DNA of 42,954 nucleotides from Actinomycetota bacterium (lineage in GTDB: Bacteria > Actinomycetota > Acidimicrobiia > Acidimicrobiales > RAAP-2), in contig JAJPJV010000039.1 of NCBI GenBank assembly GCA_021324045.1, forward strand, positions 1 to 42,954. Direction: 5' to 3'. The notes below the pieces were generated by a model, which had not been told where the DNA came from, did not search any database, and was given only the letters and a program-made list of their open reading frames with translations. Positions within the stretch are counted from its first letter, which is position 1. The number at the start of each line of letters is the position of its first letter. Position numbers and translations under genes: made by a program. Shown piece by piece: positions 29,588 to 33,423 of this stretch.

Positions 29588-30860
29588 GCGGATTCAACTG
29601 GTTGTCGCAGCACCCCAAGGATGGAGGTGTAAGCGATGGGGATCACGAGACAACAGCGGGCGACCTGGCCAATGCGAGGCAACATGTTCTTACCGGGCGC
29701 GCCGTCGCTTCCTCGTCAGCACAAGGTGTGGTTCTGGGAGACCATCGCTCGAGGAGCGACGACCGAGGAGGCGGTGACCGCCACAGGGGTATCGGTCTCA
29801 GTGGGCACCAGGTGGTTCCGCGAGGCTGGTGGGATGTGCCCGATCAGCCTCGCTCCAACTCCAGCCGTTACCTCTCGCTTGCCGAGCGCGAGGAGATCGC
29901 GATCTCGCCCATATAACGAGAAGCTCCACGCCTACGTCGAGGACCGCCTGTCGGGTCTCGTGACCCGGCCGGACGGCACCGAGGTGCACGGTCCCACCGT
30001 TCGTTTCAAGGGTCGCCGTCACGGCCGGTCGCCAGGACCGCCGGTGGGCAAAGGCATGGAGCCCTGAGCAGATCGCAAAGCGTCTTCCGCTGGACTTCCC
30101 CGACGACGAGACTATGCGCATCTCCCACGAGGCCATCTACCAGTCGCTCTTCGTCCAGGGCCGCGGGGCGCTCAAACGCGACCTCGTGACCTGCCTTCGG
30201 AGCGGGAGGGCCCTGCGGGTTCCACGAGCGCGCGCGAAAGGCCGAGGGAAGAACTTCATCACGCCCGAGGTGCTGATCTCCGAACGGCCGGCAGAAGCCG
30301 AGGACCGCGCCGTGCCCGGTCACTGGGAGGGTGATCTCATCATCGGTCTCGACAAGTCCGCCATCGGCACGCTCGTCGAGCGCACCACGCGCTACACGAT
30401 GCTGCTCCACCTGCCGCCCATGGAAGGTCACGACCAGGCCGTGAAGGTGAAGAGCGGGCCGCCGCTCGCCGGTCACGGCGCCGAGGCTGTCCGGGACGCG
30501 ATCGCCGCCAAGATCATGACGCTCCCAGAGCACCTGCGAAGATCGCTCACCTGGGACCAGGGCACCGAGATGGCCCGACACGCGAAGCTCGGATCGACAC
30601 CGGGCTGGTCGTCTACTTCGCCAACCCGCACTCGCCGTGGATACGTGGGACGAACGAGAACACGAACGGGCTCTTGCGCCAGTACTTCCCCAAGGGCACC
30701 GATCTCTACCGTTGGGATCGTGACGATCTCGACGCCGTCGCCCTTGCCCTCAACACGCGTCCGCGGAAGACGCTCGGCTGGCGCACTCCCGCAGAGGCAC
30801 TCGATGCTCTTCTACAATCAAATGGAGGAGCCAGTGTTGCGACGACCGGTTGAGCCGAGG
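29588..30860 (+). mobile_element. IS30-family element inserted in the IS3 transposase gene
   Basis: Imperfect terminal inverted repeats: left 29591-29613 (starting GATTCAACTGGTTGTCGCAG) and right 30834-30856, matching at 18 of 23 positions with only transition differences. Length about 1.27 kb. Flanks read through as HHDRGAQ and YMGRDF of the IS3 protein, so the borders are accurate to a few bases. CAG/CAA at the two borders could be a drifted 3-bp target duplication. Confidence 0.8.
29636..30853 (+). pseudogene. IS30-family transposase, broken
   Basis: An ATG at 29636 with GGAGGTG upstream gives an N-terminal region (VWFWETIARGATTEEAVTA and WFREAGGM), then a frameshift near 29853 to RYLSLAEREEIAI. 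A deletion follows near 29913 that removes most of the helix-turn-helix region, joining to NEKLHAYVEDRLSGL. Another frameshift near 30050 brings [64 protein letters not shown]. After a last shift near 30590 come [22 protein letters not shown] and [21 protein letters not shown]. The three DDE residues are all present, but the frame is broken several times. Confidence 0.85.
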
Positions 30861-31288
30861 CAATACATGGGTCGGGACTTCCGGGCGTTGTGCCTGCGTC
30901 AAAAGATCTCCCAGTCGGTCGGATGCATCGGCTCGAGCCAGGACAACGCCGTGGCCGAGAGCTTCTGGGCGACCCTCAAATGCGAGCTCGTGAGCCGCTA
31001 CCGCTTCGCCACTCGTGCCGAGGCACGGCGGGCGATCATCGCTTGGATCAAGCGCTACAACGCCTTACACCTGCACTCGACGCTCGGCAACGTTCTACCG
31101 CTCGAATGGGAACTACGTTACGCACAGCGCGACCTGCTGGCCGCATTACCGTGTGTCCGGCTAACGGGGGAAAGGCCAGTCGGCTGTGGATCGCGAACCT
31201 GACCGACGTCACCCGGCCGGTCGAAGACCCGTCGCCGACAAACCCGGCATTCACCAAACCCGGGGCGCTGCAGCATGCGAGCAGTTCA

Positions 31289-32965
31289 TCAGTGGACGAA
31301 GGGGCTAAAGACCTTCACCCCCACGATGACGACAGCGACGACGATGTAGGCGCGCAATCCGTAGACGCTCACCTTGCGCAACAGCGTCTCGCGGGGCTTG
31401 GGCAGTTGGTCGAGTCGGGGCATCCGCCAGGTCTTACGGTCAAGCGCCCTTACCACGGCGCGCTGGTCGACCATCTGGCCTCGAGCGATCCGCCGGCGCC
31501 TCATCCACACGAGCACGGGGACGAGGATCGCACCGAGCGCGCCGGCTGCGGCGAAGCAGGTCTCGGTAAGGGCCACCCCGTTGACCTGTGGGAACAAGGT
31601 GGAGATGGTGAGGTCCAAGGACAGCACAACGAGCACCGAGACGACGAGCCCGGCGAAGAAGTTGATCACCGGGCCGTTCACCCACGGTCCGAGGACGTCG
31701 GTGTCGTTGCAGAGCAGCAGCAAAAACAGCACCGCTGATGGCAGCAGGATCCCGGCCAGCACCTGAACGTACTGCGTGGCGGTCCCCAAGAAGGCGTTCG
31801 ACCCCAGCACCACAACCAGGCAGGCAAGGAAGATCTGGACGCCGTAGGCACCGTAGAACAGGGGTGCCGTGCGCACCGTACGGTGAAGCGAGTGGAACCG
31901 GTTGAAGCTGTCGCCGAACGCGTACGAGGTGGACAGCGACACTGCCCCTGCCCCGACGAGCGCGGCGAACACCAGCATCACCGCGGCGATGCCCCCAGCG
32001 ACCGGTCCGAGCGTGACGGCGATCGCGTGGTTGAACCATCCCGAATCGGTGTACGCGGCCGAGGGCCCGAAGGCCTTTGTGTGGTAGAGGGCGGCGCCGA
32101 AGATGATCATGCCCGCCGCTCCCACCGTCGTGGCCACGCCACCGACGAAGGTGTCGAGCCGCTCGTAGTTGAGCCAGCGCGGGCTGATGCGCTTGTCGAG
32201 CACGTTGGACTGCTGGAAGAACAGCTGCCAGGGGGCGACCGTCGTTCCGATGAGGGCCACGATCAGAAGGATCGCCGAGGCCGAGACTCCCCCGGCAACT
32301 CCGGGGACCACGAGGTGATCACCGATCGGCCCCCAGCGCGGGTGGGCGAGGAAGACCGCAGGAATGACAACGAAGCTGCCCAGGATCATTGCGAACATGA
32401 ACCGCTCCCACCAGCGAAAGCGTCCCGTAGCAGCGATGGCGAAGAGCATCACCCCGGCGACGCTCACCGAGAGGAGCTTCGGCACTCCGAAGTAACCGAG
32501 GCCGAAGTAGATCCCGATGAACTCGGTGAGCAGTGTCAAGAAGTTGAGCAGGAACAGGTCGAAGACCGCGAAAGCTGCCCACGCCCGCCCGAAGCGCTCG
32601 CGAATGAGCCGTGCATGACCGACACCGGTGACGGTGCCGAGGCGTGCCACCATCTCCTGGCAGAGGAGCAAGACCGGGAGGAGCACCAAGATCACCCACA
32701 AAAGGCTGTAGCCGTAGTGCTGGCCGGCCTGGGTGTAGGTCTGCACCCCGCCAGCGTCGTTGTCGCCGACCATCACGATGAGCCCGGGGCCCATGATGGC
32801 GGCGAAGGTGAGCAAGCGACGCTTCCAGGATCGGCGAGGCGCGTGGTCGCGCATCGAGACTGTGCCGAGCGCGCCTTCGATGTCACCGATGTGCGCGGGG
32901 TCGAGCACCGCGGGGGCAAAATCGATGTCTTCGTCGACGACAACGGCGGCATCACGCGTGGTCAT
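31289..32965 (-). CDS. NRAMP-family divalent metal transporter, non-canonical site (possible Mg2+/Mn2+ transporter)
   Basis: 558 residues with about 11 membrane helices. A hydrophilic N terminus of about 50 residues precedes TM1. The unwound TM1 motif is GDNDAGGV (68-74), where classical NRAMPs have DPGN. TM6 has GTTVAPWQ (240-247) in place of ATVMPH, so the metal-selective Met and the His are replaced by Ala244 and Trp246. These changes match what I recall of NRAMP-related magnesium transporters, which handle harder ions; that identification is inference. The ATG at 32965 has a near-perfect AGGAGGTG. The 3' end is 19 bases from the IS3 remnant. The preceding leader (32966-33258) carries a proline-rich mini-ORF and alternative hairpins. 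Confidence 0.88.
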   Translation of the reverse strand: MTTRDAAVVVDEDIDFAPAVLDPAHIGDIEGALGTVSMRDHAPRRSWKRRLLTFAAIMGPGLIVMVGDNDAGGVQTYTQAGQHYGYSLLWVILVLLPVLLLCQEMVARLGTVTGVGHARLIRERFGRAWAAFAVFDLFLLNFLTLLTEFIGIYFGLGYFGVPKLLSVSVAGVMLFAIAATGRFRWWERFMFAMILGSFVVIPAVFLAHPRWGPIGDHLVVPGVAGGVSASAILLIVALIGTTVAPWQLFFQQSNVLDKRISPRWLNYERLDTFVGGVATTVGAAGMIIFGAALYHTKAFGPSAAYTDSGWFNHAIAVTLGPVAGGIAAVMLVFAALVGAGAVSLSTSYAFGDSFNRFHSLHRTVRTAPLFYGAYGVQIFLACLVVVLGSNAFLGTATQYVQVLAGILLPSAVLFLLLLCNDTDVLGPWVNGPVINFFAGLVVSVLVVLSLDLTISTLFPQVNGVALTETCFAAAGALGAILVPVLVWMRRRRIARGQMVDQRAVVRALDRKTWRMPRLDQLPKPRETLLRKVSVYGLRAYIVVAVVIVGVKVFSPFVH

Positions 32966-33186
32966 CAGTCACCTCCTTCGCGTCTTGAGCAAGAAAGGAC
33001 CAGAAAGACGGCATTCAGATGCGCCAGAAGGGCGAATTCAGATACGGAGTCAGGGCGCGCCGTCACAGCCCGACTGACCCGCGATCGGATCAGTGACGTG
33101 CGCGCAGCGGCATCACGAGCTGCACGAAGGAGCGCTACCCCTGCGTCGGCACCTCGGAGCCGACCTGATCAGCCGACCGAATCAGC
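32966..33186 (-). promoter_or_regulatory. Structured leader with mutually exclusive hairpins
   Basis: Between the mini-ORF stop and the transporter start there are 221 bases. On the minus strand GTCGGC occurs twice (33177-33172 and 33164-33159) and the complement GCCGAC once (33150-33145), so only one GTCGGC can pair at a time. The first copy lies 9 bases after the mini-ORF stop and would be covered by a ribosome there. Further down, ACTGA/TCAGT and GTCAC/GTGAC pairs at 33062-33097 form a second hairpin. No T-run follows, so any termination would be Rho-dependent. The strong AGGAGGTG of the transporter is at the end. Confidence 0.55.
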
Positions 33187-33258
33187 TCAGGACAGTCGCT
33201 TGGAGACGCCGGGGCGCGGACCTGGAGGCTGGGGACTATGAGGTTCTGAACTCATCAT
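33187..33258 (-). CDS. Proline-rich leader peptide (candidate)
   Basis: 23 codons, starting ATG ATG with AAGGAGGAGG seven bases upstream, a far better ribosome site than most genes here. The peptide contains EPHSPQPPGPRPG: six prolines within eleven positions, including one PP pair, and ends SKRLS. Proline-rich leaders upstream of Mg2+ transport genes (such as mgtL in enterobacteria) slow ribosomes when Mg2+ is low and change the fate of the downstream RNA. Here a hairpin switch begins nine bases after the stop, and the downstream gene encodes an NRAMP-related transporter. I infer a similar control, with no evidence beyond sequence. The alternative is chance: GC-rich DNA gives many prolines. 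Confidence 0.5.
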   Translation of the reverse strand: MMSSEPHSPQPPGPRPGVSKRLS

Positions 33259-33423
33259 CCACCTCCTCCTTCGTCGCCGACGACGCGACAGAAATGTTAC
33301 TACGACGCGCTATTCAAGCGCCTCATCGTCACGGGTACACGCGTCGATGTCGGACTGGCACATCCGCCGAGGGTCGGGATCGTCCAAGACGTCGAAGTCG
33401 ACAGCCACCTCGGCGAGCGTCGC
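33259..33423. other. Short region between permease and leader
   Basis: 165 bases downstream of the APC permease stop. The permease frame continues beyond its TGA for 37 codons to a TAG at 33310-33312 (acidic, with two Cys) with high G/C at third positions. The promoter for the leader and transporter should be within this stretch, but I cannot place it. Confidence 0.35.

Follow-up and report, generated by a model that had tools for sequence, protein, structure and literature searches.

A candidate ribosome-read leader peptide at the head of magnesium-transport loci in Actinomycetota

On the minus strand of contig JAJPJV010000039.1 of an Actinomycetota bacterium (assembly GCA_021324045.1; the whole stretch of 42,954 nt is referred to here as the window), a short proline-rich open reading frame (ORF) with a strong ribosome-binding site precedes a gene encoding an Nramp-related transporter. 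Is this ORF a regulatory leader, which part of it matters, and to what might it respond? Ribosome-based Mg2+-sensing leader peptides are known from enterobacteria. We are highly confident that the window ORF is a real cis-acting leader. On balance, we favor the reading that it encodes a leader peptide which is read by the ribosome in cis and controls Mg2+ uptake, as a member of an Actinomycetota family placed at the heads of magnesium-transport loci. This leader family was not found described in the open literature, subscription papers being largely outside the coverage.

The window leader, its transporter and its close relatives

As first read, the leader ORF (33187..33258, minus strand) comprises 23 codons, MMSSEPHSPQPPGPRPGVSKRLS followed by a stop, with prolines at codons 6, 9, 11, 12, 14 and 16, that is, six in eleven positions; in this respect, as in the strength of its ribosome site, the window sequence bears out the first-pass annotation. 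The start common to relatives is the second ATG, at 33255 (minus strand), which gives an ORF of 22 codons (MSSEPHSPQPPGPRPGVSKRLS). Immediately upstream of the leader ORF stands AGGAGGAGGTGG, and the Shine-Dalgarno sequence AGGAGGAGGTG (33260..33270, minus strand) is near-consensus in relatives. The core codons GAA CCT CAT AGT, encoding E-P-H-S, occupy 33235..33246 (minus strand).

The transporter gene (31289..32965, minus strand; 558 amino acids) starts at 32965 behind its own Shine-Dalgarno sequence, AAGGAGGTGA (32969..32978, minus strand). Its product matches the Pfam Nramp family (PF01566, E 1.3e-69; Nramp superfamily), and its best match among solved structures is 7qia (E 9e-54), labeled a divalent metal cation transporter in the structure match and presumably the NRMT of Eggerthella lenta; a MntH is next, at E 4e-16. 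The NRMT ion-site motif consists of DxxG and TxxA/T, which replace the classical residues (PMC8806188), and NDAGG and TTVAPW of the window protein fit it. By this motif and the 7qia match, the transporter, which had been called NRAMP-related, is classified as NRMT-type, with Mg2+ as its predicted substrate.

Close relatives were located by transporter similarity alone, some of them in metagenome bins labeled Actinomycetes, Acidimicrobiales or Acidimicrobiaceae. Upstream DNA was available for 13 records (12 distinct loci, L005 and L040 being one) whose transporters are 64-87% identical to that of the window, and all 13 have a short ORF with the core and with AAGGAGGTG or a close variant, as the proposal that the leader is conserved ahead of homologous transporters had anticipated. 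The peptides include MSSEPHSSQPPQPRPGVSKRFS, LSSEPHSTQPPEPCPGV, MSRSQRRGEPPSPLACR, VKSEPPSTWRSPRSVWL and VSSDPDKPHSTVGRLSPPTA. L041 is cut at a contig edge, and L049 is cut as well. From a search of the order came one more distinct leader-bearing relative, L047, while L043-L046 and L048 are repeats of earlier loci (shared 31-mers 0.94-1.00). Two divergent NRMT genes lie about 1 kb apart in L038 and L042, where a leader reading DPDKPHS belongs to one of them; the match in L042 is in two pieces.

A sequence-only model of the Shine-Dalgarno sequence and core (R1; 47 positions, 20 training rows) was also constructed. The window leader is by far its top match in the 2.75-Mb genome of the window (E 9.4e-9, next 0.18), the window being one of the 20 training rows. 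Because it is the best match in the genome and because an ORF of the same kind occurs in all close-relative records with upstream DNA found by their transporters, the latter being the more telling, the presence of a leader ORF and ribosome site ahead of an NRMT-type transporter is confirmed as far above chance.

Core, serine codon and downstream genes of 61 leaders

For a catalog, the pattern [EDKQN]P(DK)[PH][SN] near the N-terminus and a strong Shine-Dalgarno sequence were required, and identical ORFs were counted once. The resulting 61 distinct leaders have 15-30 codons, start with ATG (39), GTG (17) or TTG (5), and carry a core that usually reads S-E-P-P-S or S-E-P-H-S and, in 52 of them, starts at codon 4 or 5. 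Their Shine-Dalgarno sequences match AAGGAGGTGA at 10 bases in 9 leaders, at 9 in 37 and at 8 in 10 (at least 8 bases in 56 of 61). All 61 stand ahead of magnesium-transport loci: (i) directly ahead of NRMT (39), (ii) ahead of a gene encoding MgtE_N and CBS domains (MgtE_N-CBS; 20), or (iii) ahead of mgtE (2). The downstream genes were identified by tblastn for 35, 20 and 2 of these, respectively, and the remaining four NRMT assignments concern pieces of about 1 kb cut from just upstream of NRMTs found by similarity. In a Pfam scan, all 8 of the MgtE_N-CBS proteins scanned had MgtE_N and CBS and both MgtE proteins had full MgtE, and NRMT follows MgtE_N in each of the 12 MgtE_N loci fetched at greater length.

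Sixty of the 61 leaders encode the core serine by AGT, and the remaining one has AAT (Asn) there. Since the training leaders of R1 carry AGT, the fairer count is that of the 26 leaders found without it, with 25 AGT and one AAT. As background, AGT accounts for 49 of 1140 serine codons (4.3%) in 48 confirmed downstream genes, from which L164 was left out since the frame taken there is not the gene (49 of 1144 with it), and for 15 of 172 serine codons elsewhere in the leaders. Two leader-like ORFs outside the catalog, L064 (GRPPS) and L084 (MKPPS), have AGT too. The neighboring codons vary freely in third position: the first core proline is CCC (35), CCT (19), CCG (6) or CCA (1), and the following P or H is CCA (20), CCC (14), CCG (13), CAT (7), CAC (6) or CCT (1). 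Because the core and its AGT serine recur ahead of magnesium-transport genes, the leader probably acts as a switch for magnesium uptake that works through translation.

Across 40 related, non-independent pairs, pN/pS (non-synonymous relative to synonymous change) was 0.17 before the core, 0 within it (19 synonymous changes and no others, a value partly forced by the selection of the set) and 0.93 after it. Purifying selection thus acts on the codons ahead of the core, and over the whole set the tail is approximately neutral. This pattern, with the variation at third positions, marks a coding element in which the first eight or so codons are constrained. The first-pass annotation had proposed a proline-rich leader linked to Mg2+; the link is upheld in that the leader precedes NRMT, MgtE_N-NRMT and mgtE genes, but what is conserved, judging from the sequences compared, is the N-terminal core and not the proline-rich run, whose prolines are kept within the window's own clade only.

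The same codon data bear on the idea that the conserved feature is an RNA motif, either a binding site or a hairpin between Shine-Dalgarno and anti-Shine-Dalgarno sequences in which GAACCTCC pairs with GGAGGT, the peptide being a by-product. ACCTCC does lie opposite the Shine-Dalgarno sequence in some members, and AGT is nearly invariant at the base level, but third-position variation in the P and P/H codons breaks the pairing in many members, and the low pN/pS before the core comes from a stretch that was not used in selecting the set. Agreement in frame between start and core is no evidence against an RNA motif, since the scan required it. We regard this explanation as improbable; self-sequestering of the Shine-Dalgarno sequence by GAACCTCC is, as a general constraint, ruled out by the varying proline third positions. 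A small protein that acts on the transporter in trans, the role suggested for the mycobacterial Rv1805A (PMC12810186), would likewise have a strong ribosome site and a conserved N-terminus. The nearly neutral part behind the core, the spread in length from 15 to 30 codons and the occurrence of one core ahead of two unrelated transporter families all speak against such a protein, which we consider equally improbable, and they leave the cis-acting leader peptide as the preferred reading.

Genome surveys with R1 extended the association with transport genes. In 24 genomes from which a leader or leader-like ORF was already known, 23 matches at E up to 0.03 were obtained, comprising 21 earlier leaders and two new ones, one preceding a second NRMT (L176) and the other an MgtE_N-CBS gene (L175); weaker matches were inspected only where given as loci, and three of the 24 genomes (G055, G266, G309) gave no strong match. 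The surveys of the order and the phylum used stricter filters, by which weak matches are lost. In the order (317 genomes), a leader ahead of NRMT or MgtE_N-CBS was found at 25 of 25 matches with E<=5e-4 and at 38 of 44 with E<=0.005, or at 18 of 18 and 31 of 37 after removal of seven matches that are training loci or carry training leaders. In the phylum (296 genomes), the figures were 5 of 5 and 5 of 11, or 4 of 4 and 4 of 10 without the window. The ORF scan revealed no leader at six of the 44 order matches and six of the 11 phylum matches, their E values ranging from 9e-4 to 5e-3. Many of these genomes are bins from metagenomes, the related sequences do not count as independent, and the loci were picked around NRMT genes or by the model. 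Nocardia farcinica NCTC11134 carries MRSEPPSRRPRGAAPSHS ahead of an mgtE that is 86% identical to the mgtE of L206, and no model match was obtained in five other plasmid records (Rhodococcus, Mycolicibacterium, Streptomyces, Cellulomonas and Tsukamurella).

In the window, the upstream neighbor of the leader and transporter is an amino-acid permease. The first part of an ORF at 30114-31202, which converges on the transporter gene, matches an IS30 model, and its last part matches IS3/IS481 or integrase-core models; the ORF is possibly a transposase remnant.

RNA structure, signal and proposed mechanism

How could the leader act on the gene behind it? The first-pass annotation had pointed to two copies of GTCGGC competing for one GCCGAC. 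The layout is as it described: copy 1 (33177-33172, minus strand) starts nine bases after the leader stop, copy 2 (33159..33164, minus strand) is an arm of a post-stop hairpin, and GCCGAC (33150-33145), within GCCGACGCAGGGG (33138..33150, minus strand), can pair with GTCGGC. The expected conservation failed to appear, as no GTCGGC occurs within the first 80 bases past the stop in the 13 close-relative records or in L012 and L016. The leader RNA of the window folds no better than its shuffles (z -0.16). The two-copy arrangement is thus seen in the window only, and a two-GTCGGC switch was rejected on its absence in the relatives checked and on the ordinary folding of the whole leader.

Other pairings are predicted within the window's clade. 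The 3' part of the leader ORF, CCCCGGCGTC (33205..33214, minus strand), is identical in seven aligned clade members, and its exact complement GACGCCGGGG lies 21-55 bases past the stop in L004, L005, L037 and L039. The complement is interrupted in L033 and L034 and weakest in the window, where GACGC-A-GGGG within GCCGACGCAGGGG could pair, with interruptions, to the 3' part of the leader. When the bases of the downstream DNA are shuffled for comparison, the duplex proves exceptional in three of the seven (L033, L004 and L039), borderline in three (fraction 0.105) and unexceptional in the window (0.74). A hairpin is also predicted in the clade directly after the stop. At some of its pairs both partners have changed, but the covariation term is small (-0.47). 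The GTCGGC/GCCGAC hairpin of the window lies at about its place, the automatic alignment being out of register. We take these stems as clade-level hints.

The Shine-Dalgarno sequence and the constraint on codons point to translation of the leader, and we infer that it is coupled to transporter expression. The working part would be the N-terminal core S-E-P-P-S or S-E-P-H-S, at about codons 3 to 8, which ends in an AGU serine; AGU is a wobble-read serine codon. In the mechanism that we consider most likely, ribosomes would load on the leader very efficiently and, at low free Mg2+ (or under another condition that limits translation), would slow down or drop off at Pro-Pro/His-Ser(AGU). The stalled or lost ribosome would alter the protection, folding or Rho access of the RNA behind it, switching on transcription or translation of the transporter gene, whereas in ample Mg2+ the ribosome would complete the ORF and expression would stay low. 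That Mg2+ is the main signal is, in our judgment, reasonably probable; pausing or drop-off at the core is favored by a narrow margin.

Several observations weigh against this mechanism or limit its generality. The residue before the core proline is E or D in 48 of 61 leaders, and K, Q or N in 13. Because these 13 lack the acidic residue, acid-driven destabilization of the ribosome would by itself be insufficient for all members, and a slow rate of decoding and of peptide-bond formation at Pro-Pro/His-Ser(AGU) may outweigh acidity. More distant look-alikes have serine codons other than AGT: L265 has AGC in its P-P-S, and L271 has TCG. Whether a ribosome is placed at the core or at the stop makes no consistent difference to the predicted access to the transporter ribosome site (56 loci, p 0.25), no intrinsic terminator was recognized in 57 spacers, and the excess of C over G that would suit Rho is modest (0.072, vs 0.015 in genes; 0.00 in the window spacer). 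Many NRMT genes lack the leader: among 60 upstream regions of the NRMT family, each about 0.9 kb, it was found in seven by ORF scan and in two more (L132 and L136, the latter the same locus as L042) by the model, which was run on the other 53, leaving 51 without it. An ORF scan of about 3 kb at 20 NRMT loci checked more deeply found no core-bearing leader at any of them; one is the second NRMT of the window genome (G000:C32:38885-40468; L002, L241), a 52% identical copy behind an MgtE_N-CBS-like gene. Finally, Mg2+ as the signal is made uncertain by an NrmT of Acidobacterium capsulatum, judged a likely Mn2+ transporter (PMC4072509).

That transporter lends some weight to a response to another signal (Mn2+, charging of tRNA-Ser or tRNA-Pro, polyamines or acid), with Mg2+ transporters being controlled incidentally. 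Proline and serine codons could report charging, and the Salmonella leaders mgtM and mgtP respond to ATP and charged tRNA-Pro (PMC8092293). The association of the leader with MgtE_N, MgtE and NRMT, and the fact that NRMT and MgtE_N-NRMT loci of mycobacterial-type genomes (defined below) use the Mg2+-sensing M-box, count against such a signal, which we consider rather unlikely. For the preferred Mg2+-responsive leader, family-wide unmasking of the transporter ribosome site was rejected as the route, no consistent effect having been predicted at the 56 loci.

The 20 leaderless NRMTs all have an MgtE_N-CBS-like gene just upstream. One of these loci, L247 (also L014), has ahead of NRMT an ORF MEPPDTDSYLDSRCHPVTLRAT with AGGAGG, an EPPD variant outside the catalog pattern. 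Some NRMTs lacking the core leader are preceded by six-codon ORFs (MTAVEE, MTTVEE, MTGVEQ and MTAAEE), located in L032, L135, L140 and L143 at 187-208 bases upstream of NRMT with the Shine-Dalgarno sequence AAGGAG; such an ORF, ending in acidic codons, could be another leader. On an NRMT tree (FastTree, 106 rows), the leader label requires seven changes, so that a single origin along the tree was rejected, yet it is strongly clustered; for some rows labeled as having none, the upstream DNA is too short to exclude a leader ahead of the partner gene.

M-boxes, mycobacterial uORF2 and known leader systems

Is the magnesium riboswitch of such loci, the M-box, present as well? The window has no M-box (RF00380) or other Rfam match at the gathering score, and no M-box was found in the leader loci scanned against Rfam or anywhere in 15 leader genomes tested. 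M-boxes do occur in all five mycobacterial-type genomes (one to four each, 14 in total), so named for an upstream ORF (uORF2) matching the family called mycobacteria-specific in PMC12810186, and all of one genus. NRMT lies within about 1.5 kb behind four of the 14 M-boxes, each time with uORF2 between; two NRMT loci of the same genus, L075 and L076, have no M-box in the DNA scanned. In Mycolicibacterium aubagnense (L263), an M-box precedes an MgtE_N-like gene followed by NRMT, in agreement with M-boxes ahead of NrmT genes and a partner gene resembling the MgtE N-domain (Shin et al., PMC4072509).

An upstream ORF is seen at 12 of the 14 M-box loci, and 11 of the 12 show S-x-x-D-S(AGT)-P, their codon 2 being AGT as well. 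The D-S(AGT)-P motif near the N-terminus of uORF2 is found at the mycobacterial-type M-box loci L085, L088, L089, L090 and L267-L280, L271 excepted; the peptide of L271, the twelfth, is LSTSDKPPSAGS, in which STSDKPPS (with TCG) is close to the SEPPS core. On a Cellulomonas sp. C5510 plasmid (L265, from 2252), the ORF MNPGHSCPPSDLPSSPVGPRLGEL with AGGAGGTGA ends about 150 bases before NRMT and reads MNPGHS(AGT)CPPS, its first serine being AGT and the serine after PP being AGC. R1 matches none of the 14 M-box loci and none of the uORF2- or L265-type loci. The resemblances of uORF2 and the L265 ORF to the core leader suggest kinship. The kinship with uORF2 (Rv1805A) is a hypothesis. A broader picture, in which one ancient actinobacterial system has the ribosome read Mg2+ at a codon-specific core, occupies three kinds of locus, is used free of the M-box, includes uORF2 as a diverged member and has AGU as part of the sensor, is speculative and seems to us doubtful as a whole.

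If the reading is true, ribosome-based Mg2+ sensing would be wider than thought, operating in Actinomycetota ahead of NRMT or MgtE and not MgtA or MgtB, and a leader peptide could replace the riboswitch that other lineages use at the same kind of operon. A near-invariant AGU within freely varying codons is unusual, and a synonymous change would test it with the peptide intact. The unexplained mycobacterial uORF2 would gain a testable idea.

Among known systems, MgtL of the enterobacterial mgtA is similar in being a very short ORF with a strong initiation site and early acidic-proline codons ahead of a Mg2+ transporter. At low Mg2+, ribosomes drop off at its EPDP and a Rho-dependent terminator is bypassed (PMC11282234); by analogy, a Rho step and a Mg2+ response may apply to the leader described here. 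The two differ in that the present core is S-E-P-[P/H]-S(AGU) and not EPDP (EPHS in the window, DPDKPHS in two distinct leaders), in phylum and transporter families, and in the acidic residue, which is not universal. The leader mgtQ of Salmonella mgtCBRU, whose early acidic codons destabilize the ribosome and promote expression of the Mg2+ transporter (PMC8092293), resembles the present leaders in its shortness and in the early position of its acidic codons, but it is intergenic, has eight codons and frees a ribosome site, whereas no consistent ribosome-site switch is predicted here. With uORF2/Rv1805A (24-26 codons at the loci seen) the leaders share a strong Shine-Dalgarno sequence and a conserved N-terminus with an AGT serine and proline, although uORF2 has a D-S(AGT)-P core with AGT also at codon 2, and no M-box stands ahead of the leaders described here. 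The M-box (ykoK) itself controls the same gene families, MgtE_N-NRMT operons included (PMC4072509), but it does so as a ligand-binding RNA, whereas the leader would be read by the ribosome.
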